Part shown: positions 1 through 27,161 of the stretch, one piece after another
Layout: each line of letters starts with the position of its first letter
How positions within the stretch are numbered: position 1 is the stretch's first letter
Origin: Bacteroidia bacterium
GTDB taxonomy: Bacteria > Bacteroidota > Bacteroidia > Flavobacteriales > Flavobacteriaceae
Assembly: GCA_030428705.1 (NCBI GenBank)
Contig: JAUIDI010000003.1
Coordinates: 372,001-436,000 of the forward strand
DNA length: 64,000 nucleotides
Direction: 5' to 3'
Notes under the pieces: generated by a model
What the model was told of the DNA's origin: nothing
The model's database searches: none
Seen by the model: only the letters and a program-made list of their open reading frames with translations
Program-made: the position numbers and the translations under genes

Positions 1-711
1 TCGGCTCTGAATATTTTAGGGTTGCAACCTGAGGAAGCCTTGGGGTTAAGGCTTTCGAGAGACCTCGGAGAAGAAAACCCTGAATTTTATACGGTAATAG
101 GCGTTGTACAGAATTTTCATTTCGATTCGATGCGCAGTGATATTCGCCCGCTCAGTCTTAATTTGGCCGATAATAGCGGAAGCATGGCCATTAAGCTTAA
201 GGCCGGTGATTTTTCGAATGCCGTTGCGCAGGTCGAAGCTGTATGGAATAAAGTGGCCCCGGGCCAACCGTTCAACTATTATTTTATGGATGAATCGTTC
301 AATACCACCTATGAAGCCGAACAACGGTTAGGCCGAATCTTTATGATTTTTTCCATACTCTCGATCATCATTGCCTGTCTCGGCCTTTTCGGGTTGGCCG
401 CTTTCAATGCCGAAAAACGCACCAAGGAAATAGGGGTGCGTAAGGTACTTGGGGCCAGCGTCGGGCAGGTCGCCTACCAGCTAACAGTCGATTTTTTAAA
501 ACTGGTAGGTATTGGAATACTCATTTCATTGCCTATTGGGTGGTTTGCCATGAGCAAATGGCTCGAAGACTTTTCGTACCGTATTGAAATAGGTGCTTGG
601 GTATTTGTTTTGGCCGCTTTATTGGCTATCGCAGTTTCCATAATAACGGTAAGCTATCAGAGCATAAAGGCGGCGATCGTAAACCCTATAAAAAGTTTGC
701 GAACAGAATAG
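1..711 (+). CDS. MacB/FtsX-type ABC permease, 3' part (cut by window edge)
   Basis: The reading frame is open from base 1, so this is the C-terminal part of a permease that begins upstream. It holds the end of the second extracytoplasmic domain and the last three membrane segments. The cytoplasmic motif RTKEIGVRKVLGAS is followed by the C-terminal membrane pair and the tail NPIKSLRTE. From RTKEIG to the stop there are 97 residues, as in every other copy of the array. It most resembles the copy at 15866-18298: both have APGQPF, YEAEQ.LGRIFM and WLEDFSYRI. A role in ATP-driven export or mechanotransmission is inferred from the MacB/FtsX family. The first residues visible are not the real start. 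Confidence 0.9.
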   Translation, partial: SALNILGLQPEEALGLRLSRDLGEENPEFYTVIGVVQNFHFDSMRSDIRPLSLNLADNSGSMAIKLKAGDFSNAVAQVEAVWNKVAPGQPFNYYFMDESFNTTYEAEQRLGRIFMIFSILSIIIACLGLFGLAAFNAEKRTKEIGVRKVLGASVGQVAYQLTVDFLKLVGIGILISLPIGWFAMSKWLEDFSYRIEIGAWVFVLAALLAIAVSIITVSYQSIKAAIVNPIKSLRTE

Positions 712-762
712 AGGTTAGAAGTGAGATATAAGAATTGAGAAGTTAGATATGAGATTAAAGAT
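712..762 (+). repeat. Array junction spacer repeat, copy 1
   Basis: Low-complexity spacer directly after a permease stop, built from TTAGAAGTGAGATAT-like and TTAGATATGAGATTAAA-like words. Related stretches follow the stops at 8456 and 15777. Here and at 8457 it runs straight into a TGTCATTTCGA element. No coding potential is seen. Confidence 0.6.
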
Positions 763-860
763 TGTCATTTCGAACTGAACGAAGTGAGCATGAGAAATCT
801 AATGATACGATTTTTTGGGGATTTCTCAATCGTCGTTGCACTCCTCATTTCGAAATGACA
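763..860. repeat. 98-base palindromic REP/MITE-like element
   Basis: Terminal arms TGTCATTTCGAA (763-774) and TTCGAAATGACA (849-860) are perfect 12-base inverted repeats. Inner arms TGAGAAATC (791-799) and GATTTCTCA (820-828) are also perfect. The whole can fold into one long imperfect hairpin. A left half alone recurs at 8501-8527. I see no transposase, so this would be a non-autonomous repeat. Its wider spread cannot be judged from this window. Confidence 0.7.
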
Positions 861-910
861 CACCGAATCGTGAGTAGTAAAGAAAGAAAAATAGAACAAC
901 AACGCCGTTC

Positions 911-940
911 GCTCCCCTCCTTTGGAGGGGTCGGGGGAGG
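911..940. repeat. GC-rich hairpin just upstream of a permease start
   Basis: CCCCTCC (914-920) and GGAGGGG (924-930) pair perfectly around TTT, with a competing outer pairing CTCCC (912-916) and GGGAG (935-939). It stands out against the AT-rich spacer and ends 17 bases before the ATG at 958. There is no T tract, so it is not a classic terminator. From memory, similar strings recur between genes in flavobacteria; this was not checked. Confidence 0.55.
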
Positions 941-957
941 CCGATAAATAAAAAACC

Positions 958-3360: not shown

Positions 3361-3429
3361 AACACTTTATAAATTAGTGAGTCTTTATTATATAGCGAAC
3401 CTAATACATCAATCATAAATCCAACGGTC

Positions 3430-5826: not shown

Positions 5827-5866
5827 TACCCCTTAGATTTAGATTATCCGATTAGCTCATATAAAG

Positions 5867-5902
5867 AGTCGCTCTCGCCCTTAGAGGCGAGGGGACTTTT
5901 TA
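5867..5902 (+). terminator. Terminator inside the permease array
   Basis: Arms AGTCGCTCTCGCC (5867-5879) and GGCGAGGGGACT (5886-5897) form a GC-rich stem with a six-base loop, followed directly by a run of T. It lies 41 bases after the stop of the upstream permease and would separate it from the gene at 6072. Confidence 0.65.
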
Positions 5903-5963
5903 AGGCCTTCCGAATACCCGAAAATACCTGTCAACATATTGTACAGAAGGTGTAAAATAATTT

Positions 5964-5979
5964 TACAGTTTAAACTGTA
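5964..5979. promoter_or_regulatory. 16-base perfect palindrome, possible operator
   Basis: TACAGTTTAAACTGTA is its own reverse complement. It lies between the terminator at 5867 and the start at 6072, in an AT-rich stretch that has no exact TAnnTTTG box. A dimeric regulator site is a fair guess, but no cognate regulator is in the window. Confidence 0.4.
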
Positions 5980-6071
5980 TTTTTTAAAATTAATTTTTAT
6001 ATATAACTGAATATCAGAATTTTATGAGTGTGGCACGAATATCGTTTTCGTAAAATCAAAACATATCGGTT

Positions 6072-8456
6072 ATGTTCAAAAACCACATGAAAATCGCATG
6101 GAGGAGCCTCAACAAAAGGAAAGGTTTCGCATTCATTAACATTCTGGGGCTTTCCCTTGGTTTTGGCTGTAGTATCTTGGTATTCCTTTTTGTACAGCAC
6201 CATTTACAGTTCGACAATTTCCATCACAACTCGGATCGCATCTATCGGTTCAATACCGAAGAACATAGGGATTATATTGATTACAACGCCAGTGTACCGC
6301 CAGGATTTTCAAACGCCTTCAAACAAGACTACGACTATGCCGAGCTTATGGCAAAGATTGCCGATTGGGGCGAGAGCCAGATTACCGTGGAGGGCAATGG
6401 CACGAAAGACCAATACATAGATTTGGTGGCCTTTGCCGAACCGGATTTTTTCAAGATTTTCAACTTTCCTTTGATTTCAGGCTCCGATTTCAAGGCCTTG
6501 GACGAACCCAATACAGCCTTTATCACCGAATCGGCCGCCGAAAGGCTTTATGGCAGTGAAAACCCCATCAATAAAACCTTTTCATTGGAAAATCAAGAGA
6601 CCATTACAGTGAAAGGGGTGTTGAAAGACCTTCCGGCCACTACCCTTTTCCAACACGACGTATTTGTATCGTACCCGACCATTAAGGATTATTTTGAGTT
6701 TTTAGGAGGCGAGTATTGGGGTGGTGTAAGTGGTAATTTACAGGTTTTCGGACTATTACGGCCCAACCAAAACATACAGGAAATCGAGGAAGCCGTAGCG
6801 GCCTTCGTGCCCAAACACCGGCCCAATTCAAAAACACTACATAAATATAAGCTACAACCACTTTCCGACATTCATTTCAATTCCCAGTATGGAGGTATAG
6901 ATGGTAAAATCCTTTGGATATTCTCGTTTATCGGGCTGTTCATTTTAGTGGTCGCTTGCATCAATTTCATCAATATTTCAACGGCGCAATCCACCTATCG
7001 ATCCAAGGAAGTTGGGGTCAGAAAAGTATTGGGTGGTCAAAAAGGAGGGTTGTTCTGGCAATTTATGGCCGAAACTTTCCTTGTAAGTCTTTTGGCGCTG
7101 GCTCTCGGGGCCGTCCTCTGTTTTTTCGCCTTACCGGCCTTCAATGCCATGTTTGACCTTGAGCTTTCCTTCCGTGGTCTCTTAAACCTCGAATTTTTGG
7201 GCTTTGTAGTGCTGTTATTGGTGTTGGTCGCTTTGTTGGCCGGAAGTTACCCCGGTATTCTATTGGCACGGATTGCCCCTGTTCTGGCATTGAAACGAAA
7301 GCTGTCGCAAAACGATGCCGGAGGGTATTTAACTAGAAAGACATTGGTAGTAGCACAGTTTACAATTTCCATTGTTCTTATCATTGGTTCCATCGTGATA
7401 GGGAAACAATTGAAATACGCCATTGATTCCGATTTAGGGTTCCAAAAAGACGGAATCGTCATGGTGAATATCCCCAAAGAAATGGATGCCGTACAACTGA
7501 ATGCCCTTAAGGAACGTCTTTCAAATAATACGGCCATCGAAAATGTTTCCGCCTGTTTTGGTTCTCCCGGAGCGGCCGGAAGAAATTGGGGAACCAGTAT
7601 GAAGTACAATAACAAACCTGAATCGGAAGACTTCAATATTCAGATAAAAATGGCCGATGTGGACTATTTGAAAACGTTTGACCTCAAACTTTTGGCCGGT
7701 AGGAATTTTGTCGAAAAAGACACCATAGATGAGGTGGTGGTGAACAAGACTTTGGCCAATAAGTTGGGATTGTCCAACCCCGAAGAACTGCTCAATAAAG
7801 AAATAAAGATCAACGGCGACCGTATTCAGGCAAAGATCGTAGGGGTAATCGATGATTTTCACGATCAGGACTTCCATCAAAACATTAATCCGGTCTTCAT
7901 CGCTCCCAATGTCGAGAATTATGGTGAAATGGCCGTAAAGATACATCTGACCAATACCAAGAGTGCATTACAGCACATTGAAAGTGAATGGAGCAAAACG
8001 TTCCCCGAGTATATCTTCGATTATACTTTCTTGGATGATCGTGTAGCGGAACTTTATGAATCGGAGCAACGTTTTCTCTCATTGATCGGGGTGTTTTCGG
8101 GGTTGGCCATTTTTATAGGCTGTTTGGGCATCTATGGCCTCATCCTCTTCTTTGTAGTGCAGAAGACCAAGGAAATAGGCATCAGGAAAGTATTGGGCGC
8201 AGGTATGACCGGTCTGGTAGGGTTGGTCGTACAGGATTTCTTTAAGCTCATAGCCATTGCCGGACTTATCGCTACCCCCATAGCTTGGTATTTTATGAAC
8301 AATTGGCTTGAAAACTTTGAATACCGGACTACGATTAACTGGTGGATTTTTGTTCTGGCCGTGGCCATCGTCATGGCAATAACCCTGTTGACCATCAGTC
8401 ATCAGGCCATAAAAGCGGCATTGGCCAATCCGGTAAAAAGTTTGCGGGCGGAGTAG
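6072..8456 (+). CDS. MacB/FtsX-type ABC permease (794 aa)
   Basis: Complete double-FtsX permease. The start MFKNHMKIAWRSLNKRKGF supports the ATG. TM1 is about 21-43 and TM2 about 281-303, with coupling motifs RSKEVGVRKVLGG (from 310) and KTKEIGIRKVLGA (from 698). The tail is NPVKSLRAE. It has no close partner in the array; the extracytoplasmic loops are distinctive, with DYIDYNASVPPGF near residue 70. It is the first gene after the internal terminator and palindrome, so it may head a second transcription unit. GC is somewhat richer than in some neighbours. Function beyond ABC-driven export is not visible. Confidence 0.9.
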   Translation: MFKNHMKIAWRSLNKRKGFAFINILGLSLGFGCSILVFLFVQHHLQFDNFHHNSDRIYRFNTEEHRDYIDYNASVPPGFSNAFKQDYDYAELMAKIADWGESQITVEGNGTKDQYIDLVAFAEPDFFKIFNFPLISGSDFKALDEPNTAFITESAAERLYGSENPINKTFSLENQETITVKGVLKDLPATTLFQHDVFVSYPTIKDYFEFLGGEYWGGVSGNLQVFGLLRPNQNIQEIEEAVAAFVPKHRPNSKTLHKYKLQPLSDIHFNSQYGGIDGKILWIFSFIGLFILVVACINFINISTAQSTYRSKEVGVRKVLGGQKGGLFWQFMAETFLVSLLALALGAVLCFFALPAFNAMFDLELSFRGLLNLEFLGFVVLLLVLVALLAGSYPGILLARIAPVLALKRKLSQNDAGGYLTRKTLVVAQFTISIVLIIGSIVIGKQLKYAIDSDLGFQKDGIVMVNIPKEMDAVQLNALKERLSNNTAIENVSACFGSPGAAGRNWGTSMKYNNKPESEDFNIQIKMADVDYLKTFDLKLLAGRNFVEKDTIDEVVVNKTLANKLGLSNPEELLNKEIKINGDRIQAKIVGVIDDFHDQDFHQNINPVFIAPNVENYGEMAVKIHLTNTKSALQHIESEWSKTFPEYIFDYTFLDDRVAELYESEQRFLSLIGVFSGLAIFIGCLGIYGLILFFVVQKTKEIGIRKVLGAGMTGLVGLVVQDFFKLIAIAGLIATPIAWYFMNNWLENFEYRTTINWWIFVLAVAIVMAITLLTISHQAIKAALANPVKSLRAE

Positions 8457-8500
8457 AGGTCAGATATGAGATGATAGAAGTGAGATATAAGATTAAAAAT
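8457..8500 (+). repeat. Array junction spacer repeat, copy 2
   Basis: After the stop, words such as CAGATATGAGATGAT and TAGAAGTGAGATATAAGATT repeat the pattern of 712-762, again ending at a TGTCATTTCGA element. Confidence 0.6.
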
Positions 8501-8527
8501 TGTCATTTCGACCGAAGGGAGAAATCT
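8501..8527 (+). repeat. Solo left half of the palindromic element
   Basis: TGTCATTTCGA is followed by CCGAAGGGAGAAATCT, matching the left half of the element at 763-860. No right arm CGAAATGACA follows, so this copy is truncated or a solo half. Confidence 0.6.
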
Positions 8528-8561
8528 ATGATATCAGATGTGAGGGATAAAATAGTGAACA

Positions 8562-8606
8562 GTTGATGGTTGGTGGTTGACTGTTAATGGAAATAGGACC
8601 ATCAAC
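8562..8606. repeat. Nine-base inverted repeat with low-complexity loop
   Basis: GTTGATGGT (8562-8570) and ACCATCAAC (8598-8606) are perfect arms around a GTT/GGT-rich loop, 31 bases before the ATG at 8638. It could form a hairpin in the leader. No T tract follows. Confidence 0.4.
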
Positions 8607-8637
8607 GGACGACTATAACTAGCAAAAAACGAGAACC

Positions 8638-11058
8638 ATGTTCAAAAATTATCTAAAAATAGCGTGGAGAAACCTTTTGAAGAACAGAGGGTATTCGGCC
8701 ATCAACATTGGTGGCCTTGCCTTGGGTATGGCCGTGGCCATGCTCATTGGGTTGTGGATTTATGGTGAACTATCTTTCAATACCAACTTCAAGAACTACG
8801 AACACATTGCACAAGTACTTATGAACAAGACGGGTAACGGCGAAACCCGCACTCGGTATAATCATCCTTATCCGTTGGCCGATGAATTGCGAAGCCTTTA
8901 TGCCAACGATTTTAAGGCTGTGGTCATGAGTTCCTTTCCGGGGGACAATGTACTATCTGCCAATGAAAAAAATTTGAACAAGTCTGGTGCTTTTATGGAG
9001 AAAGATGCACTTCGTATGTTCTCGATACAGCTATTAAAGGGTGATGAACATGTACTCGAAGACCCAAACGCCATCGTAATTTCTGAATCAACGGCAAAAG
9101 CGTTTTTTGGCAATGAAGACCCCATGGGCAAGGCGATGCGATTGAACAACGATGCGGTAGTTACTGTAAAAGGTGTTTTTAAAGACCTGCCGCACAATGC
9201 CAATATCTTTGAATCATTTGCCGCGTTTTCCGAATCCAAAGAACTTCAATTCATTGCCCCGTGGAATCTTTATGTTTCCATGTACGATTGGGTAAAAACT
9301 GCTAGGGACCAAAAGCTATGGGACAATAACTCTTATCTCTTGTTCACGCAAATAGACGAAGGGTCAAGTATGTCAATTGTCAACGAAAAAATAAAGAATA
9401 CCCTTTATGACCATGTTCCTGATATGACCAAACGGAGCAGCCCGCAAATTTTTCTTCACCCTATGAAAGATTGGCATTTGCGGTCTACTTTTAAGAATGG
9501 CATATCTACGGGCGGTGCGATTCAGTATGTGCGCATGTTCGGCATCATTGGCCTATTTGTGCTACTGTTGGCCTGTATCAATTTTATGAACCTAAGCACG
9601 GCCAAGGCACAAAAACGCGCCAAGGAAGTGGGTATTCGAAAAACGGTAGGCTCCTATAAAAAACAATTGGTAGGGCAATTTATGTTCGAATCATTGCTGG
9701 TCACCCTTTTTGCTTTTGTATTTGCATGTGCACTTGTACTGCTGCTATTGCCACTTTTCAATCAATTGGCGGGTAAACAGATTGTTTTTCCGTTCATGAA
9801 TCCAATGTTTTGGTCTTTAAGTTTGGGATTGGTCTTGCTAACTAGCCTTTTGGCCGGAAGTTATCCGGCATTATACTTATCCTCCTTCCGTCCGGTAAAA
9901 GTACTTAAAGGAACCTTCAAAACCGGACGTTCGGCCTTATCCTTCCGTAAAGTTTTGGTCGTGGTCCAATTTGCAGTTTCCATCATTTTGGTGTCCGGTA
10001 CCGTAGTGGTCAACCAGCAGATTCAGTATTCCAAAGACCGACCGATAGGGTATGACAAAAACAGCTTGACCATGGTCGAAAAGACCACTGAAGATTATGA
10101 GGGCAAATACAATGCACTGCGGGAAGCCCTGAAAAATAATGGGGCTGTGGCCGAAATGGCGGAATCCTCAAGTCCGTTGAGTGAAGTTTGGCACAGCAAT
10201 GGCGGCTATGAGTGGGAGGGCAAAGACCCCGATTTCAGTACCAATATCGTTGCCTTTTATGTATCGCACGATTATGGGAAGACCGTGGGGTGGGAAATGG
10301 CACATGGACGAGATTTTTCAAGGGACTTTGCCTCAGACTCCACTGCCTATATTCTAAACGAGGCCGCGGTGAAGTATATGGGCCTGCAAGACCCAGTGGG
10401 CAAAACAATCCGATGGTACGACGGTGAGCATAAAATCATTGGGGTAGTCAAAAACCTTTTGACGGAATCGCCTTTTGAGCCTGTGAAACAGGCTATTTAT
10501 TCAATAAATTATAATGAAACCAATTGGATAAACCTTAAACTGGCCCCTGAGATGAGTCTTACCGAATCACTTGCTCAAATCGAAACTGTATTTAACAAGT
10601 TTGCTCCTAGTGTTCCTTTTGAGTACCAATTCGTTGACGAGGTTTTTGGGAATAAATTCAAGACCGAGGAGCGTATGCGAAAGTTGTCGGGAATCTTTGC
10701 GATTCTTGCCATTTTTATATGCTGTTTAGGATTGTTCGGACTAGCGACTTTTATGGCCGAACAGCGGACTAAGGAAATCGGTATTCGAAAGGTGTTGGGA
10801 GCCTCAATACCAAGTCTCTTTAAGATGCTATCCAAGGATTTTGTAGTGCTAGTAATGGTTTCTGGGCTGATGGCAGTTCCCGTTGCCCAATATTTTATGC
10901 GACAGTGGCTGCAAAACTACTCGTATCGTATCGGAATACCATGGTGGGTATTTGGGGCCGCCATTTTAGTTGTTTTGTTGATTGCCCTTTTTACGGTAAG
11001 CTATCAAGCGTTAAGGGCGGCGGTGGCAAATCCTATAAAAAGTTTACGAACAGAATAA
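8638..11058 (+). CDS. MacB/FtsX-type ABC permease (806 aa)
   Basis: Complete double-FtsX permease, sister of the 3430 copy, with the same AINIGGLALGMAV start region, HPMKDWHLR segment and GRDFSRDF loop. Coupling motifs are RAKEVGIRKTVGS and RTKEIGIRKVLGA (from 710). The tail is NPIKSLRTE. Only 11 bases separate its stop from the next start at 11070, so the two genes are probably cotranscribed and translated together. The leader of 180 bases before it holds three repeats, which fits insertion or recombination between the units. Confidence 0.9.
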   Translation: MFKNYLKIAWRNLLKNRGYSAINIGGLALGMAVAMLIGLWIYGELSFNTNFKNYEHIAQVLMNKTGNGETRTRYNHPYPLADELRSLYANDFKAVVMSSFPGDNVLSANEKNLNKSGAFMEKDALRMFSIQLLKGDEHVLEDPNAIVISESTAKAFFGNEDPMGKAMRLNNDAVVTVKGVFKDLPHNANIFESFAAFSESKELQFIAPWNLYVSMYDWVKTARDQKLWDNNSYLLFTQIDEGSSMSIVNEKIKNTLYDHVPDMTKRSSPQIFLHPMKDWHLRSTFKNGISTGGAIQYVRMFGIIGLFVLLLACINFMNLSTAKAQKRAKEVGIRKTVGSYKKQLVGQFMFESLLVTLFAFVFACALVLLLLPLFNQLAGKQIVFPFMNPMFWSLSLGLVLLTSLLAGSYPALYLSSFRPVKVLKGTFKTGRSALSFRKVLVVVQFAVSIILVSGTVVVNQQIQYSKDRPIGYDKNSLTMVEKTTEDYEGKYNALREALKNNGAVAEMAESSSPLSEVWHSNGGYEWEGKDPDFSTNIVAFYVSHDYGKTVGWEMAHGRDFSRDFASDSTAYILNEAAVKYMGLQDPVGKTIRWYDGEHKIIGVVKNLLTESPFEPVKQAIYSINYNETNWINLKLAPEMSLTESLAQIETVFNKFAPSVPFEYQFVDEVFGNKFKTEERMRKLSGIFAILAIFICCLGLFGLATFMAEQRTKEIGIRKVLGASIPSLFKMLSKDFVVLVMVSGLMAVPVAQYFMRQWLQNYSYRIGIPWWVFGAAILVVLLIALFTVSYQALRAAVANPIKSLRTE

Positions 11059-11069
11059 ATTCATCAATC

Positions 11070-13460: not shown

Positions 13461-13467
13461 TCAAGTA

Positions 13468-15777: not shown

Positions 15778-15828
15778 AAATTAGATGTGAGGTGTTAGAA
15801 GTGAGATATGGGACTTTAGAATTTAGAC
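15778..15828 (+). repeat. Array junction spacer repeat, copy 3
   Basis: Contains TTAGATGTGAGGTG and TTAGAAGTGAGATAT (15795-15809), the same words as at 715-729 and 8475-8488, again directly after a permease stop. No TGTCATTTCGA element follows here. Confidence 0.55.
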
Positions 15829-15865
15829 AAAGAAAAGCAATCAACGAATAACGATATACAAAAAC

Positions 15866-18298: not shown

Positions 18299-18344
18299 AA
18301 AAACATACTATCATGTTTAAGAATTATTTGAAAATCGCATGGCG
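18271..18344 (+). repeat. 74-base direct repeat, left copy
   Basis: Covers the last codons of the upstream permease, the spacer AAAAAACATACTATC and the first 11 codons of the next permease. It matches 20697-20770 at 72 of 74 positions without gaps. The two copies lie 2,426 bases apart and bracket the gene at 18313. Confidence 0.85.
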
Positions 18345-20724
18345 AAACCTTCTAAAGAACAAAGGATATTCGCTTATTAATATTTCAGGATTGGCTGTCG
18401 GGGTATGCTGCTTTATTTTGATAGCTCTTTATGTCAAAAACGAATTTAGCTATGATCGGTTTCATACCAATGCAGATAGGATTTACAGGGTCTGGCAGCA
18501 TGAGAATTATGGTCCCAAGGAGGATTTTGTAAATACGACGACTCCGGTATCGATGGTCAATGTACTAAAGAATAATTATCCTGAAATAGAAGATGGCAGC
18601 CGCGTGCACCGCTTCAATGCCTTGGTCAAAAAAGATAAGGCAGAGTTCAACGAGACCGTTAGGGCTGTAGATCCGGGCTTTTTCAAAATTTTTGATTTTG
18701 AAATTATAAAGGGCAATACAACCAATCCATTTTCAAATGCGAATTCCCTAGTACTCACTGAAGCATCCGCTATCAAATATTTTGGAGATGAAGACCCCAT
18801 AGGCAAGTCACTCTCTTTGGAGTTCAATAATGAAGTCAAATTCTTTGAAGTTTCCTCAATTGCAGCCGATCCTCCCCAAGAATCTAGCATTCAATTCGAC
18901 ATATTGGTATCCTTTCAGAACGAAGCGCTTTTCTTTGGTGAAAGGGCAAGGCAAAGCTGGTTCAATGTATCGGTAGAGTCGTATCTTTTGCTAAAGCCCG
19001 GACAATCCCCAAAACTATTGGAAGATAAATTCCCCGTCATTATTGAACAATATTTGGGTGACAATTTCGAGGAAGACACCTTTTTTCTCCATTTGCAGCC
19101 AATTGACGAAATACATTTGAATTCATCGCTGCCACCGGGTCTCGAGCCCATTTCAAGCCCGATATACGGCTACGTTATGGGTACTATCGGCTTTTTGATA
19201 TTATTGTTGGCCTGTATCAATTTCATTACGCTGGCCGTTGGGCGTTCGTTTTCAAGGGCCACCGAAGTTGGTGTTAGAAAAGCCTTAGGAGCCTTCCGCA
19301 AACAAATAATCCATCAGTTCTGGGGCGAGGCTTTCTTGGTTACACTATTGGCCGTCTTATTCGGGATCGGGCTGGCCTTTATTTTTCAAGGAACCTTTAA
19401 TTCGCTAACCGGAAAACCGTTGGCCATAACCTTTGACCTGAGCCTTTTGTCGATTGTCGCCGGGCTGGTCTTGTTTGTTGCATTAATGGCCGGAATCTAT
19501 CCATCGATCGTGCTTTCAAAATTCAATCCTATCGAAGTTTTGCGAAACAAAATGGGCAAGGGTGCTTCCATGGGTCTATTTGGAAAAAGTTTGGTCGTAA
19601 CCCAATTTGTAGCTTCTATAGTAATGCTGATCGGCACCTTGGTAATTGGGCGCCAAATCGATTTTCTAGTGAACAAGGATCTCGGTTATCAAAAAGAAGC
19701 CGTTGTGGTGGTGCCTACCAATATGTCAGGTGATGAGGCGACTACCTTTGCCGATCTTTATGTAACCGAACTCAAAAAGCAACCTTTGGTAGCCAATGCC
19801 TCTAGGTCGATATTCAGTTTTTCCGAAAATGGTTGGATCGATGTAGGATTTACCGATGGGACGAACACCTATCAGGAATTTACCGTAAACGTTGTTGACC
19901 CGGGATTTCTCAAAACCCACAATATACGACTGACGGAAGGGCGGGATTTTCAAGAAGGCAGTTCCGCTGAAACCCAAAACGGGGTATTGGTAAACGAAAC
20001 ATTTGTTAAGAGATTTGGGCTGCAAGACCCCGTCGGAAAGCCCTACGACAAGTTTGACATTAACATTATCGGGGTAATGCAAGATTTTAATTTCGAGTCT
20101 TTGAACAATGTTATCGAGCCTTTGATGTTGACAATGAATAGGGCCATCTTTGAACACATCGAAAACGTAAGCATACAATATAGTACCCAGCCAAGAGTTT
20201 CGGTTCGCCTAAAGACCCAAGATCTGGGCGGTGCCATTGCGATGTTGAAAACGGAATGGGAGAAAATCAACCCCGCCCAAGAATTTGAATACCGATTTCT
20301 TGATGAAGCCCTGTCCGCGCAATATCAAAATGAACTGCGATCAAGAAGTATAGTCAATATTGCTTCGATATTATCCATTTTTATAGCCTGTATGGGCTTG
20401 TTCGGATTGGCGACCTTGACCGTGGCAAGAAGAACATCGGAAATCGGAATCCGAAAGGTAATGGGTGCCAATGTAGTGGACATCGTGACCATGATATCAA
20501 AAGATTTCGTAAAACTGGTATTGATTGCCTCTTTGTTTGCCTTTCCGATTGCTTGGTGGGCGATGCGTGAATGGTTGCAGGGCTTTGCCTATACCGTTGA
20601 CATCGGTTGGTGGCCTTTCATTGCGGCTTGTACCACTGTAGTGGCAATTACTCTGATTACGGTAAGTTTTCAATCCATTAAGGCTTCATTGGCAAACCCG
20701 GTAAAAAGTTTAAGAACGGAGTAA
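18313..20724 (+). CDS. MacB/FtsX-type ABC permease (803 aa)
   Basis: Complete double-FtsX permease. Coupling motifs are RATEVGVRKALGA and RTSEIGIRKVMGA (from 707). It shares LGAF..Q....QFWGEAF after the first motif with the copy at 20739 and, more loosely, with that at 23916. These three 3'-most permeases form a sub-group. The gene is bracketed by the 74-base direct repeats at 18271 and 20697, so a single homologous exchange could delete or duplicate it cleanly with both junctions left in frame. Its start and stop lie inside those repeats. Confidence 0.9.
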   Translation: MFKNYLKIAWRNLLKNKGYSLINISGLAVGVCCFILIALYVKNEFSYDRFHTNADRIYRVWQHENYGPKEDFVNTTTPVSMVNVLKNNYPEIEDGSRVHRFNALVKKDKAEFNETVRAVDPGFFKIFDFEIIKGNTTNPFSNANSLVLTEASAIKYFGDEDPIGKSLSLEFNNEVKFFEVSSIAADPPQESSIQFDILVSFQNEALFFGERARQSWFNVSVESYLLLKPGQSPKLLEDKFPVIIEQYLGDNFEEDTFFLHLQPIDEIHLNSSLPPGLEPISSPIYGYVMGTIGFLILLLACINFITLAVGRSFSRATEVGVRKALGAFRKQIIHQFWGEAFLVTLLAVLFGIGLAFIFQGTFNSLTGKPLAITFDLSLLSIVAGLVLFVALMAGIYPSIVLSKFNPIEVLRNKMGKGASMGLFGKSLVVTQFVASIVMLIGTLVIGRQIDFLVNKDLGYQKEAVVVVPTNMSGDEATTFADLYVTELKKQPLVANASRSIFSFSENGWIDVGFTDGTNTYQEFTVNVVDPGFLKTHNIRLTEGRDFQEGSSAETQNGVLVNETFVKRFGLQDPVGKPYDKFDINIIGVMQDFNFESLNNVIEPLMLTMNRAIFEHIENVSIQYSTQPRVSVRLKTQDLGGAIAMLKTEWEKINPAQEFEYRFLDEALSAQYQNELRSRSIVNIASILSIFIACMGLFGLATLTVARRTSEIGIRKVMGANVVDIVTMISKDFVKLVLIASLFAFPIAWWAMREWLQGFAYTVDIGWWPFIAACTTVVAITLITVSFQSIKASLANPVKSLRTE

Positions 20725-20770
20725 AAAAACATACTATTATGTTTAAGAATTATTTGAAAATCGCATGGCG
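20697..20770 (+). repeat. 74-base direct repeat, right copy
   Basis: Second copy of the permease-to-permease junction at 18271-18344, differing at two positions (the stop-codon region and the base before the ATG). Outside the repeat the neighbouring coding sequences are much less alike. Confidence 0.85.
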
Positions 20771-23141
20771 GAATATAAAGCGAAACAAGCTACATTCTTT
20801 TATTCACATTTCAGGGTTGGCAGTTGCTTTTTCAATCTGTATTCTTTTGTTTTTGGTTGCTTATTTCCATTTGAACTTTGATTCCTTTCATGAAGATGAG
20901 AGCCTATTGTTCAGAACCTCGCGCTTTGAGAAAAACGAACAAGGACCCCAAATGAGCTCTCAAATGCCATTGCCTTTGGCGCGGGCGTTGGAGACAGATA
21001 TTCCTGAAATCGAAACCGCCATTATAATTAACAAAGGGAAGCCAGAAAATATTTCGTACGGAAATAAGAATTTGGAAAGGTTGGTGGCTAGGACTAATCC
21101 TGATTTTTTTGAGGTATTCAATTTCCCCATTATAAAAGGAAATAAAGAGGCGGCACTTTCCGGTATTCACAATATCGTCTTGAGCGAGAGTATGGCTCAT
21201 GCCATCTTTGGAGATACAGACCCAATTGGAAAACAATTGAAAATAGGGAAATCAGGGGAAGAACAAATCTATTCGGTATCCACGGTAGTGAAAGATGCCC
21301 CAAAAAATAGCAGTATTCGTTTCGATGCCGTAGCCCGAATCGAATCGCTCAACGGTTACCAAGGATATAAAAATAACTGGGCATCGAATGCATCGAACAT
21401 CTTTGTAAAGATTGCCAAGAACAGCAACCCTGCGACCGTTGAAAATAAACTGGTCCCGTTTGTAGAAAAATACTACGCTGAGCAACTAGAGCAACTAAAA
21501 TCGCATCATCCTGAAGCAGTGGAGACCCATGAACTGTTAAGTATAAACCTCACCAATATTGAAGACATGCACTTTTCGGGAGAAAAGAGTGCGCCAAAAA
21601 TGTTGGTCTACGCTATCATGGCATTAGGAGCCTTTATCTTATTGATTGCTTGCTTCAATTTTGTAAACCTGAACATGGCACAATCTTTTCAGAGAAGCCG
21701 TGAATTGGGTGTTAGAAAAACATTGGGTGCCTTTAAGAGGCAACTTTTTCTCCAATTATGGGGCGAAGCTTTCATGATGTACTTTTTCGGGTTTATCCTG
21801 GGCTTAGGTATTGCGTATCAACTTTTGCCGACTTTCAGCGCTCAGTTTGGAGGTGGACTTGATATTACCATTTTGTTCGAACCTGTTTTTCTGGCCATAT
21901 TATTCGGGGTTTTTGTAACCGTCACATTAATAGCAGGAGGATATCCTGCGATTAAAATGGCCAATTTCAGGTTGGTTCAAATTTTGAAAGGAAATGTGTC
22001 CACTAAAAAACCAGGAGCACTAAGAAATTCATTGTTAATCGGTCAATTCGCGATTTCAAGTCTTCTGATTTGCATTAGCTGGATAGCTAGCCAACAACTT
22101 GATTTTTTACGCCAAATACCTATTGGGTTTGAAAAGGATCAGGTAATAAGTATTCCCGTAGGGTATCAGGAAGATGGAGGAAAAGTATTGGCAAGGATGC
22201 GTAACGAACTTGCCAGTGAACCGAGCGTTGTGTCGGTTACAGGTGCCGGAGGTAATGTGGGTCGGGGAAGAGATAGAACGACTTCAACATCAATTGTTGG
22301 CATTGATTATAAGCAACGGCAGATTTCCGCATATAGTCTCTTGGCCGATTTCGATTATCTGAAAACATTGCAAATTCCAATTATAGAGGGTCGGGATTTC
22401 GACCCTAGTTTTCCAACCGATGCCGAAAGCGCCGTAGTGGTTACTGAAAGCTTTGTAAAGGCAATGGAGGAGTCCGATCCAATAGGCAAATATCTCGACG
22501 GCGAGGAAGGTAGTCAAATTATTGGTGTGGTATCGGACTTCAATGCCTACGCCCCTTCAGAGAAATCATTGCCTATAATCATTCATTTGTCCAACGATGA
22601 AGCAATCAACTATATCTTTCTAAAAGTCGGTACGGATAATCCACAAAGAACTATGGAACGGCTTAAATCGACTTGGGAGAAAGTTGCTCCAAAATCAATG
22701 TTCAATGCTTCTTTTTTAGATGAGAACATTCAGGCTTGGTATGAAATTGAAAGTACGATGACAAGAATTTTTGGAATTGCCTCAGGAATTGCCATCTTTC
22801 TTTCTTGTCTTGGACTTTTCGCTATCTCGATGCTGGTCATCGAATTACGTACAAAGGAAATCGGCATTCGAAAAGTAGTGGGCGCATCGGTAAAGGAAAT
22901 CGTTTCGATGATATCGTATCACTTTCTGAAATTAGTAGCTATCAGTCTTTTTATAGCAATGCCCTTGGCGTGGTTTGCAATGGAGAATTGGATGCAGAAT
23001 TATGAGCATCGAATAGAAATTGGTCTTTTGACCTTTGTGGGAATTGGCTTGCTGGTAATTATGATTGCCCTGTTTACGGTAAGTTTCCATTCGATCAAAG
23101 CTGCCCTTGCCAACCCGGTAAAAAGTTTACGAACAGAATAA
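20739..23141 (+). CDS. MacB/FtsX-type ABC permease (800 aa)
   Basis: Complete double-FtsX permease. Coupling motifs are RSRELGVRKTLGA and RTKEIGIRKVVGA (from 704). A glycine-rich loop GAGGNVGRGRDR in the second extracytoplasmic domain recurs as SDNNLGRGKDG in the copy at 23916, which supports a sister relation. The C-terminal membrane region is less tryptophan-rich than in other copies (IGLLTFVGIG), but the 97-residue length is kept. Twenty bases separate its stop from the GIN-domain gene, suggesting one transcript. Confidence 0.9.
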   Translation: MFKNYLKIAWRNIKRNKLHSFIHISGLAVAFSICILLFLVAYFHLNFDSFHEDESLLFRTSRFEKNEQGPQMSSQMPLPLARALETDIPEIETAIIINKGKPENISYGNKNLERLVARTNPDFFEVFNFPIIKGNKEAALSGIHNIVLSESMAHAIFGDTDPIGKQLKIGKSGEEQIYSVSTVVKDAPKNSSIRFDAVARIESLNGYQGYKNNWASNASNIFVKIAKNSNPATVENKLVPFVEKYYAEQLEQLKSHHPEAVETHELLSINLTNIEDMHFSGEKSAPKMLVYAIMALGAFILLIACFNFVNLNMAQSFQRSRELGVRKTLGAFKRQLFLQLWGEAFMMYFFGFILGLGIAYQLLPTFSAQFGGGLDITILFEPVFLAILFGVFVTVTLIAGGYPAIKMANFRLVQILKGNVSTKKPGALRNSLLIGQFAISSLLICISWIASQQLDFLRQIPIGFEKDQVISIPVGYQEDGGKVLARMRNELASEPSVVSVTGAGGNVGRGRDRTTSTSIVGIDYKQRQISAYSLLADFDYLKTLQIPIIEGRDFDPSFPTDAESAVVVTESFVKAMEESDPIGKYLDGEEGSQIIGVVSDFNAYAPSEKSLPIIIHLSNDEAINYIFLKVGTDNPQRTMERLKSTWEKVAPKSMFNASFLDENIQAWYEIESTMTRIFGIASGIAIFLSCLGLFAISMLVIELRTKEIGIRKVVGASVKEIVSMISYHFLKLVAISLFIAMPLAWFAMENWMQNYEHRIEIGLLTFVGIGLLVIMIALFTVSFHSIKAALANPVKSLRTE

Positions 23142-23161
23142 ATTAGGTAAAAACGAAGCAA

Positions 23162-23884
23162 ATGAAAAAAACGATAATGTTATTAACGCTGGCTACATTA
23201 TTTGTAATAGCCTGTGAAGCACAGAAGAGAGTCAAGGGCAATGGACATGTTGTGACCATCGAAAGAAATGTAGATGACTATGATGCTCTCAGGGTCGGGG
23301 GTTTTTATGAAGTTGAACTGGTCGAAGGCAAAGAAGGCCAGGTTACCATAAAAGGTGAAGAGAACCTCATGGAATATATAGAGACCGAAGTAAAGGGCGG
23401 AACTTTGATTATCAAAACAAGGGACCACATGAATCTTAGTCCCTCACGAGGTGAAGATGTGTACATTACCATACCTGTTGAAAAAATCGATGCAATACGG
23501 CTTTCCGGTTCCGGCAAGTTAACGAGCAGAAAAACCCTTGAGACCAATAGTTTCAAAATCCATACTTCCGGTTCGCGAAATGTGGAATTAGATATAGAGG
23601 CAAAAAAGGTAACGGTAATTACCTCAGGTTCAAGTGATGTTGATCTAAGCGGAAGCGCTGAAAACATGGATGCGACATCTTCAGGGTCATCAGATGTGGA
23701 CGCCTTTGATCTCGATGTCGACAACGTTGATGTGCGGTCGTCGGGTTCATCGGATGTCAAGATTACCGTAAACGAAACACTTCAAACACAAGTGTCAGGT
23801 TCGGGAGATGTAAGATATAAAGGAAATCCCAACAAAATAAAGAACAAACTATCGGGCTCGGGCGGGGTATCTAAAGTGAATTAA
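23162..23884 (+). CDS. GIN-domain (DUF2807-type) exported lipoprotein (240 aa)
   Basis: The leader MKKTIMLLTLATLFVIAC gives a lipobox ending at Cys18, so a lipidated envelope protein is likely. The rest is a right-handed repeat of short strands with SGS or SGSSDV turns about every 20 residues (LSGSGKL, TSGSRNV, TSGSSDV, SSGSSDV, VSGSGDV, LSGSGGV). This is the hallmark of the head-GIN/DUF2807 family. Members are abundant in Bacteroidota and mostly uncharacterised; the adhesin label in databases is not firm. Its place between two permeases, with gaps of 20 and 31 bases, suggests it is made with the transport system and may act outside the inner membrane. Confidence 0.85.
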   Translation: MKKTIMLLTLATLFVIACEAQKRVKGNGHVVTIERNVDDYDALRVGGFYEVELVEGKEGQVTIKGEENLMEYIETEVKGGTLIIKTRDHMNLSPSRGEDVYITIPVEKIDAIRLSGSGKLTSRKTLETNSFKIHTSGSRNVELDIEAKKVTVITSGSSDVDLSGSAENMDATSSGSSDVDAFDLDVDNVDVRSSGSSDVKITVNETLQTQVSGSGDVRYKGNPNKIKNKLSGSGGVSKVN

Positions 23885-23915
23885 GCCTTTAATATTGAAA
23901 ACAAATTTGTAAACT

Positions 23916-26324
23916 ATGCTAAAAAACTATCTAAAAATCGGTTGGCGTAATTTAATGAAGGACAAAACCTTTACGTTATTGAACGTAATTGGTCTTTCCA
24001 TCGCCTTTGGGGCAGCTATTTTGTTGGCGATGTCTGCTTTTTTCGATATGTCGTACGATAAGTTTCACGCTAATGGCGATCGAATTTATCAGGTATATGC
24101 CGTAGCGCAGACGCCAAGGGGGCAGGAAGCCGGTACCAGTCAACCCGAACCGTTCGCCGAAGCCCTTAAGACCGAAGTACCGGGTGTCGAGAAAATTACG
24201 CGGTACCTTCAAGATGGGGGTTTGGTCATTTACGGTGAAAAAGAGATCGACCTCAACACCGTTTGGGTCGATGCCGACTTTTTTTCCATGTTTACCTTTC
24301 CGGTATTGAAGGGGAACAAGAACGATCCCTTGCAAGATCAGGCATCGGTCGTGATTACCGAAAATGCGGCCAACAAGTTGTTCGGCACCCATGAGGCGAT
24401 AGGGCAAACGATCAATATAATGATTAACGGAAAGGAAGAGCCTTTTACCGTGGGGTCGGTCGTCGGTAACGTTCCGCCACAAAGTTCATTGGATTTTGAA
24501 GTGGCCGTTCGATTTGAAAAAAATGCCGAATATGCAGAGACCAAAGGGATTTGGGATTCACAATACCATGGGGTTTATGTACAGCTGCCCGAAGGGGTTT
24601 CTCCCGAACGCTTCGAAAAGAACGCCCGTTCTTTTACCGAGCTGCATTACAAGGAATCCATGGAAGCCGCCAAACGCGATGGCGCACTGCCTGATGCCGA
24701 CGGTCTGTATCGGCAGTTAAAACTATTGCCGCTCAAAGACCGGCATTTTACAAGTTATAGAAAAGGCTATGCAGAAGTGAGCCGATCAGTGCCCTATCTC
24801 ATTTTGGGGGTAGCCTTTCTTATTTTGTTCATTGCCTGTGTCAACTTCGTCAACATGAGTATTGCGAAAAGTGCGCAGCGCCTACGTGAAATAGGGATGC
24901 GAAAAACGCTGGGTGCCCAAAAAGGACAACTGTTCTTCCAATTTTGGAGCGAAAGCCTTTTTGTATTTCTGACCTCAATAGGCATTGGTGTTCTGTTAAG
25001 TATTCTGTTGATCGATGATTTCAAAAGTATGTTCCGTACAAGAATTTCTTTGGATATGCTTACCGAACCTTGGGCGATATTTATGTTTTTTGTCACGATT
25101 TTGACAATTACATTGACGGCCGGGGGGTATCCCGCATTATTGCTAAGTCGCTTAGGGACCATTCAATCGTTGAAGGGAAAGTTGGAAGCGTCGGGCAATA
25201 ATCTTGTTCGAAATGTACTTATGGTCGTCCAGTTCGGTATTGCCATTTTGTTGATAAGCGGTACCTTGGTGCTGTGGGGTCAGGTGCAATTTATGCGGAA
25301 CAAAGATTTAGGCTATGATAAGGAGCAGGTGATTTCCTTCCCTTTAAACGGAAAAAAGAACGGACATGAGGTCCTAAAGCTGCTAAAGGATGAGTTGAAT
25401 GGTAATCCGGATATTTTGGAGGTATCGGCGTCCGACAACAATTTAGGGAGAGGAAAGGACGGAAGTCAATGGTCGAGCGCAATCGGTTTTGAACACAAGG
25501 GACGAAGCGTAAGGACCAATATTCTTAACGTTGATTATAATTACCCAAACACTTTGGGGTTGCAATTGGTACAAGGTCGAGATTTTAAATCGGAGGCCGA
25601 TAGTCTGGGTGTGCTGATCAATGAGACTATGGCACGTCAATTGGAAGAAGAGGATCCTTTGTCTGCCCGGCTCGAAGTTGGTAGTGAAACAGGTCTCGCC
25701 ATATTGGGAGTAGTCAAGGACTATAATTTTCAGGGTCTTGATCGGGCCATTGAACCGATTACTTTTTTTATGAGCGAGGATATGGAGTTAAGATATGCTT
25801 ATGTAAAAGTTGCACCGACGAATATGGCCAGTTCTTTTGATGCAATAGAACAAATCTGGAAAAAATTGGAACCCAATGCCGAGTTTTTAGGATCGTTTTT
25901 GGACGAAAATGTAGACAGGACTTTTCAGAGGGAAAAAACCATGGCCGCCATGATTACGAGCGGCTCGATTATTGCCATTGCATTGAGCTGTATCGGTCTG
26001 TTCGCCATGTCGTTGTTGATCGTAGCACAGCGCACCAAAGAAATAGGTGTCAGAAAAGTATTGGGCGCAAGCGTTGCTTCAATTACGGTATTGCTCACCA
26101 AGGATTTTTTGAAATTGGTGTTGATCGCATTTTTGATCGCCTCGCCGATCGCTTGGTGGTTCTCTGATCAGTGGTTACAGAACTATACCTATAAAATAGA
26201 CCTTGGGGTATGGTTCTTTGTTGCGGCAGGTCTATTGGCAATGGTCATAGCGTTATTGACCGTCGGTACTAGAACGGTCAACGCGGCTGCCCAGAATCCG
26301 GTCAAAAGTTTGAGAACTGAATAA
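23916..26324 (+). CDS. MacB/FtsX-type ABC permease, last of the array (802 aa)
   Basis: Complete double-FtsX permease starting MLKNYLKIGWRNLMKDKTF. Coupling motifs are RLREIGMRKTLGA and RTKEIGVRKVLGA (from 706). It has a deviating last membrane segment ending GTRTVNAAAQNPVKSLRTE, where other copies have SF or SY followed by QAIKAA. It is closest to the copy at 20739. It lies 51 bases ahead of the ATPase gene and is the only permease adjacent to it, so this pair is the safest permease-ATPase match. Confidence 0.9.
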   Translation: MLKNYLKIGWRNLMKDKTFTLLNVIGLSIAFGAAILLAMSAFFDMSYDKFHANGDRIYQVYAVAQTPRGQEAGTSQPEPFAEALKTEVPGVEKITRYLQDGGLVIYGEKEIDLNTVWVDADFFSMFTFPVLKGNKNDPLQDQASVVITENAANKLFGTHEAIGQTINIMINGKEEPFTVGSVVGNVPPQSSLDFEVAVRFEKNAEYAETKGIWDSQYHGVYVQLPEGVSPERFEKNARSFTELHYKESMEAAKRDGALPDADGLYRQLKLLPLKDRHFTSYRKGYAEVSRSVPYLILGVAFLILFIACVNFVNMSIAKSAQRLREIGMRKTLGAQKGQLFFQFWSESLFVFLTSIGIGVLLSILLIDDFKSMFRTRISLDMLTEPWAIFMFFVTILTITLTAGGYPALLLSRLGTIQSLKGKLEASGNNLVRNVLMVVQFGIAILLISGTLVLWGQVQFMRNKDLGYDKEQVISFPLNGKKNGHEVLKLLKDELNGNPDILEVSASDNNLGRGKDGSQWSSAIGFEHKGRSVRTNILNVDYNYPNTLGLQLVQGRDFKSEADSLGVLINETMARQLEEEDPLSARLEVGSETGLAILGVVKDYNFQGLDRAIEPITFFMSEDMELRYAYVKVAPTNMASSFDAIEQIWKKLEPNAEFLGSFLDENVDRTFQREKTMAAMITSGSIIAIALSCIGLFAMSLLIVAQRTKEIGVRKVLGASVASITVLLTKDFLKLVLIAFLIASPIAWWFSDQWLQNYTYKIDLGVWFFVAAGLLAMVIALLTVGTRTVNAAAQNPVKSLRTE

Positions 26325-26375
26325 TTTTTGACCGACCATGCATCTAACATTTAATATCTAAAAACTAAATAAATT

Positions 26376-27038
26376 ATGTTATTACAACTGAACAACATTT
26401 TCAAATGGGTACAACAGGGCGGACAGCGAGTCTTTCTTTTAAAAGACATCAATCTTGAGGTGGAGGAAGGTGAGTTCATTTCGGTAATGGGCCCTTCAGG
26501 TTCCGGAAAGTCGACCTTGTTGAACGTTATCGGAATGCTCGATACTTTTGATGAAGGGGAATATAATTTTCTAGACGAGCCGGTACATCAGCTCAAGGAA
26601 AAACATCGTTCAAACTTGTATAAACAATACATCGGTTTTGTATTTCAAGCCTATCATCTGATCGATGAGCTTACCGTTTATGAGAATCTAGAGATGCCCT
26701 TGCTTTATAAAAAGATTTCAGGTTCCGAGCGAAAGGCAATGGTGGCCGATATGCTCGATCGCTTCAATATTGTGGGCAAGAAAGATTTGTTCCCTACACA
26801 ATTGAGTGGTGGGCAACAGCAATTGGTCGGGGTAGCTCGGGCACTCATTACCAAACCTAAGTTGATTCTTGCCGATGAACCCACCGGAAATCTAAACTCC
26901 AAACAGGGGGAAGATATCATGGAACTGTTTAAGCAGCTAAATGATGAAGGGGTGACCATCATTCAAGTAACCCATTCGGAAAAAAATGCGGAATATGGTA
27001 AACGCATTATCAATTTACTGGATGGGCGGATGGTGTAG
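26376..27038 (+). CDS. ABC transporter ATPase, MacB/LolD-type (220 aa)
   Basis: Soluble nucleotide-binding subunit expected to drive the permeases upstream. Walker A GPSGSGKST is at 39-47, the Q-loop Gln at 91, the signature LSGGQQQ at 143-149, Walker B LILADE at 163-168 with Pro-Thr-Gly following, and the switch His at 200. After the signature the usual RVAIARAL reads LVGVARAL, an unusual change beside the ATP sandwich. All catalytic residues are present. Length and motif spacing fit the MacB/LolD/FtsE group. It is the only ATPase in the array and is followed by a terminator. Confidence 0.93.
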   Translation: MLLQLNNIFKWVQQGGQRVFLLKDINLEVEEGEFISVMGPSGSGKSTLLNVIGMLDTFDEGEYNFLDEPVHQLKEKHRSNLYKQYIGFVFQAYHLIDELTVYENLEMPLLYKKISGSERKAMVADMLDRFNIVGKKDLFPTQLSGGQQQLVGVARALITKPKLILADEPTGNLNSKQGEDIMELFKQLNDEGVTIIQVTHSEKNAEYGKRIINLLDGRMV

Positions 27039-27059
27039 GTGATTATGGTCTGTAATAAA

Positions 27060-27094: not shown

Positions 27095-27161
27095 ATAAAT
27101 CCCTTTTATTGGGGTATGTTACTTTTCAATGTCAACCCTTTACCTTCTCGACGTTATGCCC

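Follow-up and report, generated by a model that had tools for sequence, protein, structure and literature searches.

Flavobacterial arrays of double-FtsX permeases between two ATPases: a likely tripartite exporter with a multiplied permease

We analyzed a 64,000-nucleotide stretch of a Flavobacteriaceae genome (GenBank assembly GCA_030428705.1, contig JAUIDI010000003.1, positions 372,001 to 436,000; G000:C9:372001-436000 in our numbering), here called the window, whose left edge falls inside a tandem array of permease genes. The full locus contains eleven MacB/FtsX-type permeases and two ATPases, one at each end of the array, in the order TolC-family protein, HlyD-type adaptor, ATPase A1, permeases P1 to P10, GIN-domain protein, P11 and ATPase A2. 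Judged from sequence, the locus rather likely encodes a tripartite exporter resembling MacAB-TolC and DarBCD, in which the permease slot has been multiplied and the motors are shared. The FtsX-like fold, MacB-type extracytoplasmic domain and MacB-type ATPase are those of FtsX/MacB-type (type VII) ATP-binding cassette (ABC) transporters, and the adaptor and TolC-family gene are those of a MacAB-TolC-like pump.

Ten complete permeases (P2 to P11, 769-810 amino acids, with P6 measured from its likely start) lie in tandem on the plus strand at 958-26324, after the C-terminal part of P1 (Table 1). Pfam finds two FtsX stretches in each of the ten and MacB_PCD twice in nine of them (once in P7), and the best E-values of the permeases range from 1e-13 (P1 tail) to 4e-36. 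Given these values and the recurrence of the arrangement in 41 other assembled arrays, chance is no explanation. An earlier note on this DNA had described ten complete permeases and a partial one head to tail, which Pfam bears out, with a GIN lipoprotein and only one ATPase at the 3′ end. Both of these genes are real, but the GIN (DUF2807) gene lies between P10 and P11, and the count of one ATPase is an edge artefact, because the window begins inside the array. We rejected the one-ATPase reading since a genome search located A1 directly 5′ of P1 (L001:13515-14210; match at C9:369514-370170). A1 is 53% identical to A2 and separately conserved. Overall, the observation in the earlier note stands in part, and its interpretation is partly supported.

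Further upstream, Pfam places HlyD_3 in the adaptor and OEP in the TolC-family protein. The adaptor passes the TIGR01730 cut-off (149.1 versus 94.9), while TolC-family models remain below their own cut-offs. A histidine kinase and an NtrC-type response regulator lie upstream of the TolC-family gene, divergently on the minus strand.

MacB_PCD matches occur at 36 places in this genome. A second cluster of four double permeases (C15:109762-119594) has no ATPase match within 90 kb, the nearest on the contig being at 218741; we call such permeases orphans. These four belong to lineages K, J, D and F (defined below), which are also represented, at 51-74% identity, in the A1-A2 arrays of other genomes. 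The scanned part of their neighborhood encodes GH67, an RND pump set, TatD, UbiA, DHQ synthase and a phosphodiesterase. The remaining genomic MacB_PCD permeases are half-size by open frame, except one of 864 amino acids, and several are close to an ATPase match. No further ATPase match lies beside the array or the second permease cluster, so that a dedicated ATPase for each permease was not found in either place. The idea that many permeases share a motor is backed by these ATPase-less members of array lineages and by the ratio of permeases to ATPases, which is 11 to 2 here and reaches 27 to 2 elsewhere, although the motor is not the single ATPase first proposed.

The counting of permeases and ATPases in the flanks and in relatives, suggested at that time, was carried out with permeases of at least 700 amino acids taken as full-length; the counts depend on this threshold, and some contigs are incomplete. 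In 42 assembled arrays (31 from named genomes, 8 from sample genomes, and G000, G001 and G002), A1 and A2 bracket 3-27 full-length permeases, with a median of 7. Within the fetched stretches of these arrays the permeases sit between the two ATPases, except for one each in G328 and G334. The largest array, in the uncultured Flavobacteriaceae isolate 3-18-3Z (G312), has 27 permeases and an A1-A2 span of 69 kb, whereas Zobellia russellii (G323/L039), a culturable relative, has 3 permeases. Two genomes of the same genus as ours have 7 permeases (Flavobacteriaceae bacterium NBU2977, G001) and 15 full-length permeases plus 13 fragments (G002) between A1 and A2. In G003 and G013, two genomes of other genera, the corresponding site before mrp has A1 with permeases resembling P1 and P3 only, and A2 was not found in either. 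We found no published description of such arrays in the open-access literature searched, subscription papers being outside its scope, which is weak evidence of absence.

A scan of named genomes found at least 541 relatives, from which 80 A2 loci were kept; by record title, those among the matches listed are mostly from Flavobacteriaceae, with two from Cyclobacterium, one from a “Cytophaga” record and two from Bacteroidia metagenome-assembled genomes. In all 31 named A2 genomes that were searched whole, one contig carries both ATPases. Of 296 genomes sampled from the order, 61 had a match. Nine of them, our own included, have A2 at 77-100% identity and, 10-29 kb from it on that contig, A1; the other 52 have weaker, A1-like matches only. 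Both ATPases lie inside the examined DNA in 7 of the 80 named loci, with 2-4 permeases between them. In twelve hand-picked A1-only loci (8 of the 52 sample genomes, G007, G013 and two extra loci), A1 is followed by 0-4 full-length permeases. In L166 (G332:C42) and L167 (G334:C3), which are further A1-type loci, the permeases are diverged and the fetched DNA contains no A2.

Five of the 42 arrays (G332, G339, G110, G094 and G177) differ more strongly from ours in A1 (67-69% identity) and the adaptor (38-45%), with a TolC-family gene located after A2. As far as gene content tells, the part consisting of A2 and the permeases is thus also joined to a different core. The two Cyclobacterium loci (L065 and L072, arrays G331 and G333) match ours at 82-88% identity in A1, A2 and the adaptor, which is as close as many Flavobacteriaceae come. 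This pattern suggests transfer of the whole locus between orders, with two Cytophagales genomes involved and the taxonomy checked for one.

We compared 354 full-length permeases, 347 in ATPase-bearing loci and 7 orphans. Identity within a locus has a median of 32%; only 7 of 1564 pairs exceed 60% and none exceeds 80%. For 344 of the 354 permeases the best match is in another genome. Clustering at 50% identity, a cut on which the lineage labels depend, gives 82 clusters, the largest two occurring in 36 and 40 loci. The set of lineages differs in each of the 42 arrays (0 of 861 pairs identical), and the mean Jaccard index is 0.25 with singletons left out. The order of lineages is nevertheless conserved: 334 of 404 observations (83%) fit the majority order, compared with 64% (maximum 70%) in 1000 shuffles. 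By mean position, lineages D, J, C, O, F and S are late, near A2, and H, K, G and A are early. The array looks like an old one that was largely kept vertically, with steady gain and loss of lineages. It is scarcely credible that recent tandem duplication produced near-copies without separate roles. In our array P1 and P8 are 65% identical and P3 and P5 51%, which speaks for such duplication, but we rejected it on the low identity within loci, the best matches in other genomes and the conserved order.

Each permease chain has two FtsX halves and two coupling helices, in agreement with the earlier proposal that one chain can take two ATPases; the complex of YbbP, which likewise has two coupling helices per chain, has a stoichiometry of 2 YbbA : 1 YbbP : 1 TesA (PMC12646458). 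The coupling-helix residues G337, E717, R721 and G725 are invariant in all 354 permeases, as expected from the conservation of coupling motifs noted previously. Among 81 sequences, mean identity is 0.23-0.24 for the outer domains, compared with 0.35 for the N-terminal and 0.44 for the C-terminal membrane part; the two coupling regions have means of 0.43 and 0.55. The outer domains had been called very different. Their sequences do diverge, but the first extracytoplasmic domain (ECD1) of every complete permease and the second (ECD2) of nine of the ten match one common Pfam family. Hydropathy gives eight transmembrane (TM) peaks and two large outer domains. A structural model of P8 (pLDDT 90.1, pTM 0.85) has about eight TM segments, and its best structural match is YbbP (9ge6; Z 25.6, root-mean-square deviation 9.2 over 668 residues), with BceB, MacB and LolE also matching.

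Comparison of segment distances between membrane and outer domains points to exchange in a few cases. Between our genome and G001, A1 and the adaptor have a synonymous divergence (pS) of 0.38. P8 and its G001 counterpart have pS 0.21-0.40 and nonsynonymous divergence (pN) of at most 0.013 in the membrane parts, with one 60-codon membrane step at pS 0.59, versus pS 0.75-0.80 and pN 0.18-0.24 in the outer domains. ECD1 of P8 is nearest to that of the more distant G324 (81%, compared with 70% in G001), whereas the membrane parts are nearest to G001 (97-99%). Because synonymous divergence is high only in the outer domains, recombination is indicated rather than protein selection alone. An orphan pair of lineage D is alike (pS/pN 0.55/0.175 in ECD2 and 0.06/0.000 in the C-terminal membrane part), as is the lineage-C pair of G314 and G318 (0.73/0.157 in ECD2). 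We called a pair mosaic if an outer domain had pS of at least 0.75 and a membrane part less than 0.5. Among 67 reciprocal-best pairs, which come from 15 genome pairs in two species groups and are not independent, four are mosaic (P8, P3 and one G320 gene twice) and none has the reverse pattern. P3 is diverged from its counterpart over most of its length, the ends excepted. In 7 of 9 lineages the ECD1-ECD2 distance correlation is at least as high as both ECD-membrane correlations, the short, conserved membrane segments being noisier. A few near-orthologues look recombined, with outer domains exchanged on a kept membrane core, and to this extent the mix-and-match system proposed earlier is supported.

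To compare the two ATPases, we aligned 60 rows of A1 (57 distinct) with 122 of A2 (86 distinct), some genomes being entered twice. The D-loop residue is Asn in all 122 A2 rows and Asp in all 60 A1 rows, as well as in three other ATPases of this genome. Both proteins keep the Walker A Lys, Q-loop Gln, LSGGQ, Walker B Asp-Glu and H-loop His. After LSGGQQQ, A2 continues with L/V-V-G and A1 with R-V-A, and 32 differences count as fixed, being shared by at least 90% of either protein's rows. The A2 sequences form one clade (42 of 42, support 1.0), which branches from within a non-monophyletic A1; the deeper nodes of this tree have modest support (0.53-0.89). Distances of A1 and A2 correlate (r 0.70; 0 of 999 permutations, Mantel test), and their mean distances over the 42 arrays (0.146 and 0.138, respectively) indicate similar conservation. 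By these alignments, A2 is a distinct conserved ATPase lineage. The sequences of the solved MacB, BceA, LolD and YbbA structures match A2.

A change of the D-loop Asp to Ala turns TAP1 into a nucleotide-gated facilitator in which transport is uncoupled from hydrolysis, whereas the corresponding change in TAP2 behaves like wild type (PMC4242082). The D-loop change in A2 may thus matter, in a direction and to a degree that cannot be predicted.

A sigma54-like element lies 41 bp before the TolC-family gene in our genome, and this spacing is repeated before P4. A relaxed sigma54 pattern precedes the TolC gene at 21 of 28 loci, compared with 46 of 5600 background windows of 150 bp; it also occurs in 10 of the 61 permease-preceding gaps that measure 100-500 bp, compared with 4 of 352 control windows. 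A CTGATNATCAG-like palindrome, which is weak alone, occurs in 17 of 28 upstream regions and in 351 of 5600 background windows. Since the sigma54-like element before P4 is combined with a terminator-like hairpin after P3, the array probably comprises more than one transcription unit, as far as such pattern matches can tell. A scan of 8000-27600 gave 36 terminator-like hairpins, versus 20.2 (standard deviation 3.9) in shuffles, many of them within genes, and no excess of sigma70-type promoters (40 versus 39.7 expected). In other bacterial classes, FtsX-like permeases were linked to sigma54 by a 2025 study (PMC12316311).

The locus has relatives among known systems, but was not filed under MacB, DarBCD or ADOP because the score cut-offs are not reached. 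Like MacAB-TolC, it has a permease with MacB_PCD and FtsX, an adaptor, a TolC-family channel and a MacB-type ATPase. Unlike in MacAB-TolC, the ATPase is unfused, the permease halves are in one chain, and there are eleven permeases and two ATPases. We rejected MacB proper, an ATPase fused to a four-TM permease, since the genes here are separate and PRK10535 gives 26-65 bits versus 966 for the 12 permeases scanned. With DarBCD (NF038008, NF038010, NF038007), the locus shares a double-FtsX permease, an HlyD-type adaptor and a separate ATPase. The darobactin locus has one of each, unlike the many permeases and two ATPases here. DarD is the best NCBIfam model of both ATPases (A1 295.7 and A2 249.1 bits, cut-off 375), and DarC is that of the adaptor (217 bits, cut-off 450). 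For the permeases DarB is second (70-194 bits, cut-off 700) to ADOP. As no curated Dar cut-off is reached by ATPases, permeases or adaptor, membership in DarBCD was rejected.

ADOP, the acidobacterial duplicated orphan permease family (TIGR03434), is similar in its length of about 800 amino acids, its internal duplication and its high copy numbers. To our knowledge, ADOPs come without ATPases (family description), unlike the array permeases, which are flanked by A1 and A2; the four-gene cluster on C15 would agree with ADOPs in having no ATPase nearby. Two Dyadobacter genomes have 28 and 33 ADOP copies (PMC11573002). We rejected ADOP membership on scores of 217-346 bits, versus a cut-off of 622.3, for the 11 array permeases and one orphan, and no TIGR03434 match above the cut-off occurred in 25 genomes.

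E. coli YbbAP(-TesA), which includes the best structural match, also has a single-chain double-FtsX permease with two coupling helices. However, YbbP has a linking TM pair and ten TM segments (PMC12646458), versus about eight here. The YbbAP system also has a single permease, and a hydrolase partner in place of the adaptor and TolC. In Group II energy-coupling factor (ECF) transporters, a shared two-ATPase module serves many membrane proteins. The logic of an energizing module common to many exchangeable membrane proteins is alike, but ECF transporters are importers whose membrane proteins are unrelated to ours. Finally, PADLOC defense models do not match P8, P11 or the GIN protein, the three proteins given. 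A1 and A2 match several PADLOC models over part of their length (best mad3, 2e-32 and 1.5e-27), which we take to reflect the common ABC fold. Membership in a defense system was rejected, as neither permease nor GIN protein matched.

The anatomy of the locus, its recurrence, the conserved coupling, the turnover of permeases and the patterns of domain exchange in a few pairs can be read from the sequences directly; the mechanism is our proposal. Its constant parts would be one TolC-type channel, one HlyD-type adaptor, A1 and the specialized A2. Each permease chain, with its two FtsX halves and two outer domains, would be a full membrane unit that takes two ATPase subunits. The permeases, including ATPase-less ones encoded elsewhere, would draw these subunits from a common pool of A1 and A2, and would take turns at the shared adaptor and channel. 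The NtrC-type pair might switch on the locus through sigma54. The variable periplasmic domains would recognize different hydrophobic or peptide-like compounds, which would then be expelled from the periplasm or from the inner membrane's outer leaflet.

Several observations weigh against this proposal. The sharing of the adaptor is deduced from gene content, and 5 of the 42 arrays carry the other type of adaptor and A1. The permeases could be largely silent or redundant, and the fragments in 3 of the 42 arrays (13 in G002 beside its 15 full-length genes, 5 in G331 and 3 in G340) may reflect decay or assembly errors. A2 is not tied to long arrays, as L042 and L095 (the latter from Arenibacter aquaticus) consist of A1, two permeases and A2; this minimum of two slightly weakens the link between A2 and expansion, and leaves the proposed exporter untouched. 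Only 4 of the 67 non-independent pairs are mosaic, and most pairs are diverged over their full length with no domain-specific synonymous contrast. The relaxed sigma54 pattern was fixed after viewing conserved upstream sequence, which makes the enrichment post hoc in part. Strict sigma54 patterns match at only 4 of 28 loci (113 of 3360 background windows, 420 bp) and 5 of 28 (53 of 3360, 202 bp).

Three rival readings concern the division of the two ATPases among the permeases. Possibly, although we would not count on it, the motor of each permease is an asymmetric heterodimer of A1 and A2, in which the D-loop Asn of A2 makes one ATP site differ, as in heterodimeric exporters. A2 is accompanied by A1 wherever this was searched, is monophyletic, correlates with A1 in distance, and keeps the remaining catalytic motifs although its fixed differences include the D-loop Asn and LSGGQQQ[L/V]VG; in TAP1, a change of the D-loop Asp to Ala has an uncoupling effect (PMC4242082). 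However, the corresponding TAP2 variant in the same paper is wild-type-like, and the Mantel correlation is expected of any co-inherited gene pair. Divergence of A1 and A2 and the D-loop Asn only suggest two different subunits in one complex. The heterodimer is also not obligatory: lineages A and B occur with A1 in G003 and G013, where A2 was not found, which suggests that A1 alone can serve these lineages. Two motors with two clienteles, an A2 homodimer serving a subset such as the 3′-end permeases and A1 the others, would be another division, which we regard as rather unlikely. On average, lineages D, J, C, O, F and S do lie near A2 and H, K, G and A early, but position is weak evidence of pairing, the coupling-helix consensus has no clear early/late split by eye, and L042 and L095, whose only permeases are lineage A- and B-like (best matches P8 and P3), also carry A2. 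It is more improbable still that A2 is a mere second dosage copy. Long operons tend to lose expression toward the 3′ end, and A2 is the last gene of the array, but it is conserved like A1 while keeping 32 fixed differences, which a plain copy need not do, and it is present even in two-permease arrays.

With respect to cargo, we favor slightly, and as a guess, the removal of changing foreign compounds by the proposed exporter, because repertoires differ between all compared arrays. Export of the cell's own secreted products such as peptides, with one cargo per permease as in a darobactin exporter, is doubtful. The closest named models are darobactin exporter subunits, and MacB relatives act in toxin and siderophore secretion (PMC5985334, PMC12646458). 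However, most gaps (249 of 399) do not exceed 50 bp, and the 24 gaps of at least 400 bp show DUF2807, beta-lactamase-family or other genes, or none, when open reading frames (ORFs) of at least 80 amino acids are considered. This counter-evidence is limited by the 150 gaps longer than 50 bp, by precursors that might lie elsewhere and by short precursor genes, which were not sought. A broader interpretation, which we hold only tentatively and consider doubtful as well, is an ECF-like adaptive repertoire: an asymmetric A1/A2 motor with its fixed D-loop change, one adaptor and channel, and up to 27 exchangeable single-chain permeases, orphans included, whose paired periplasmic domains would be swapped between genomes on an unchanging membrane core, giving rise to new specificities.

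Large duplicated FtsX permease families occur in Acidobacteria, where they are annotated as orphan permeases. Annotation of such families as orphans without an assigned function is also seen for Dyadobacter (PMC11573002). The arrays give a testable answer to the question of what powers orphan permeases, namely a shared ATPase pair, one member of which has a fixed D-loop substitution. If true, the ECF-like interpretation would explain the powering of at least some orphan duplicated permeases. The arrays may also record natural exchange of periplasmic domains on a constant membrane core, which would be useful for finding what the domains recognize.

Table 1. Features of the permease array, in window positions unless a locus or contig is given
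Feature	Position	Strand	Remarks
P1, C-terminal part	1..711	+	FtsX 1e-13; full gene upstream has MacB_PCD and FtsX
P1, complete gene	L001:14280-16712 = G000:C9:370279-372711	+	
Permease P2, 800 aa	958..3360	+	MacB_PCD 8.3e-30, FtsX 7.6e-24
Permease P3, 798 aa	3430..5826	+	Lineage B (40 loci); Pfam, lineage clustering
Terminator-like hairpin and T run, P3-P4 gap	5874..5901	+	Judged by eye; outside the terminator-scan range (8000-27600)
Imperfect palindrome CTGAATATCAG	6007..6017	+	Weak; resembles element upstream of the locus's first gene
Sigma54-like element TGGCACGAATATCGT, 41 bp 5′ of P4	6031..6045	+	Consensus match only; pattern picked after inspection
Permease P4, 794 aa	6072..8456	+	Pfam
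Permease P5, 806 aa	8638..11058	+	Pfam
Permease P6	11070..13460	+	ORF open from 10905; probable start ATG 11070
Permease P7, 769 aa	13468..15777	+	Most diverged of the eleven; Pfam, identity comparison
Permease P8, 810 aa	15866..18298	+	Structure-modelled; mosaic versus G001 counterpart
Permease P9, 803 aa	18313..20724	+	Pfam
Permease P10, 800 aa	20739..23141	+	Pfam
GIN-domain (DUF2807) protein, accessory	23162..23884	+	3.4e-52; lipobox-like FVIAC; between P10 and P11
Permease P11, 802 aa	23916..26324	+	Lineage C (mostly late in arrays); Pfam
ATPase A2, 220 aa	26376..27038	+	Last gene of array; intact Walker A/B, LSGGQ, Q-loop and H-loop; Asn (N174) in the D-loop
Intrinsic-terminator-like hairpin 3′ of A2	27061..27088	+	11 pairs; terminator scan

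We now note some additional properties of the arrays and the window. DUF2807 (GIN/Toastrack) genes recur in other arrays, as detected by BLAST (G002, G312, G317, G322, G338 and G124) or Pfam (G177 and G215). Toastrack domains have been tied to envelope stress systems and some ABC operons (PMC11237479). A gene of about 500 amino acids lies inside arrays G314, G316, G318, G319 and G320 near the 3′ end, and the G314 version belongs to the beta-lactamase family (PF00144). In our array, the P1-P2 gap (712-957) and the P4-P5 gap (8457-8637) have a repeat-like GTCATTTCGA stretch in common. Outside the array, a 790-aa ORF at window positions 48726-51098 has no Pfam match at E 0.001. A 1233-aa protein at 52526-56227 combines a metallophosphatase domain with a C-terminal part that resembles ShlB at a score just below the cut-off.

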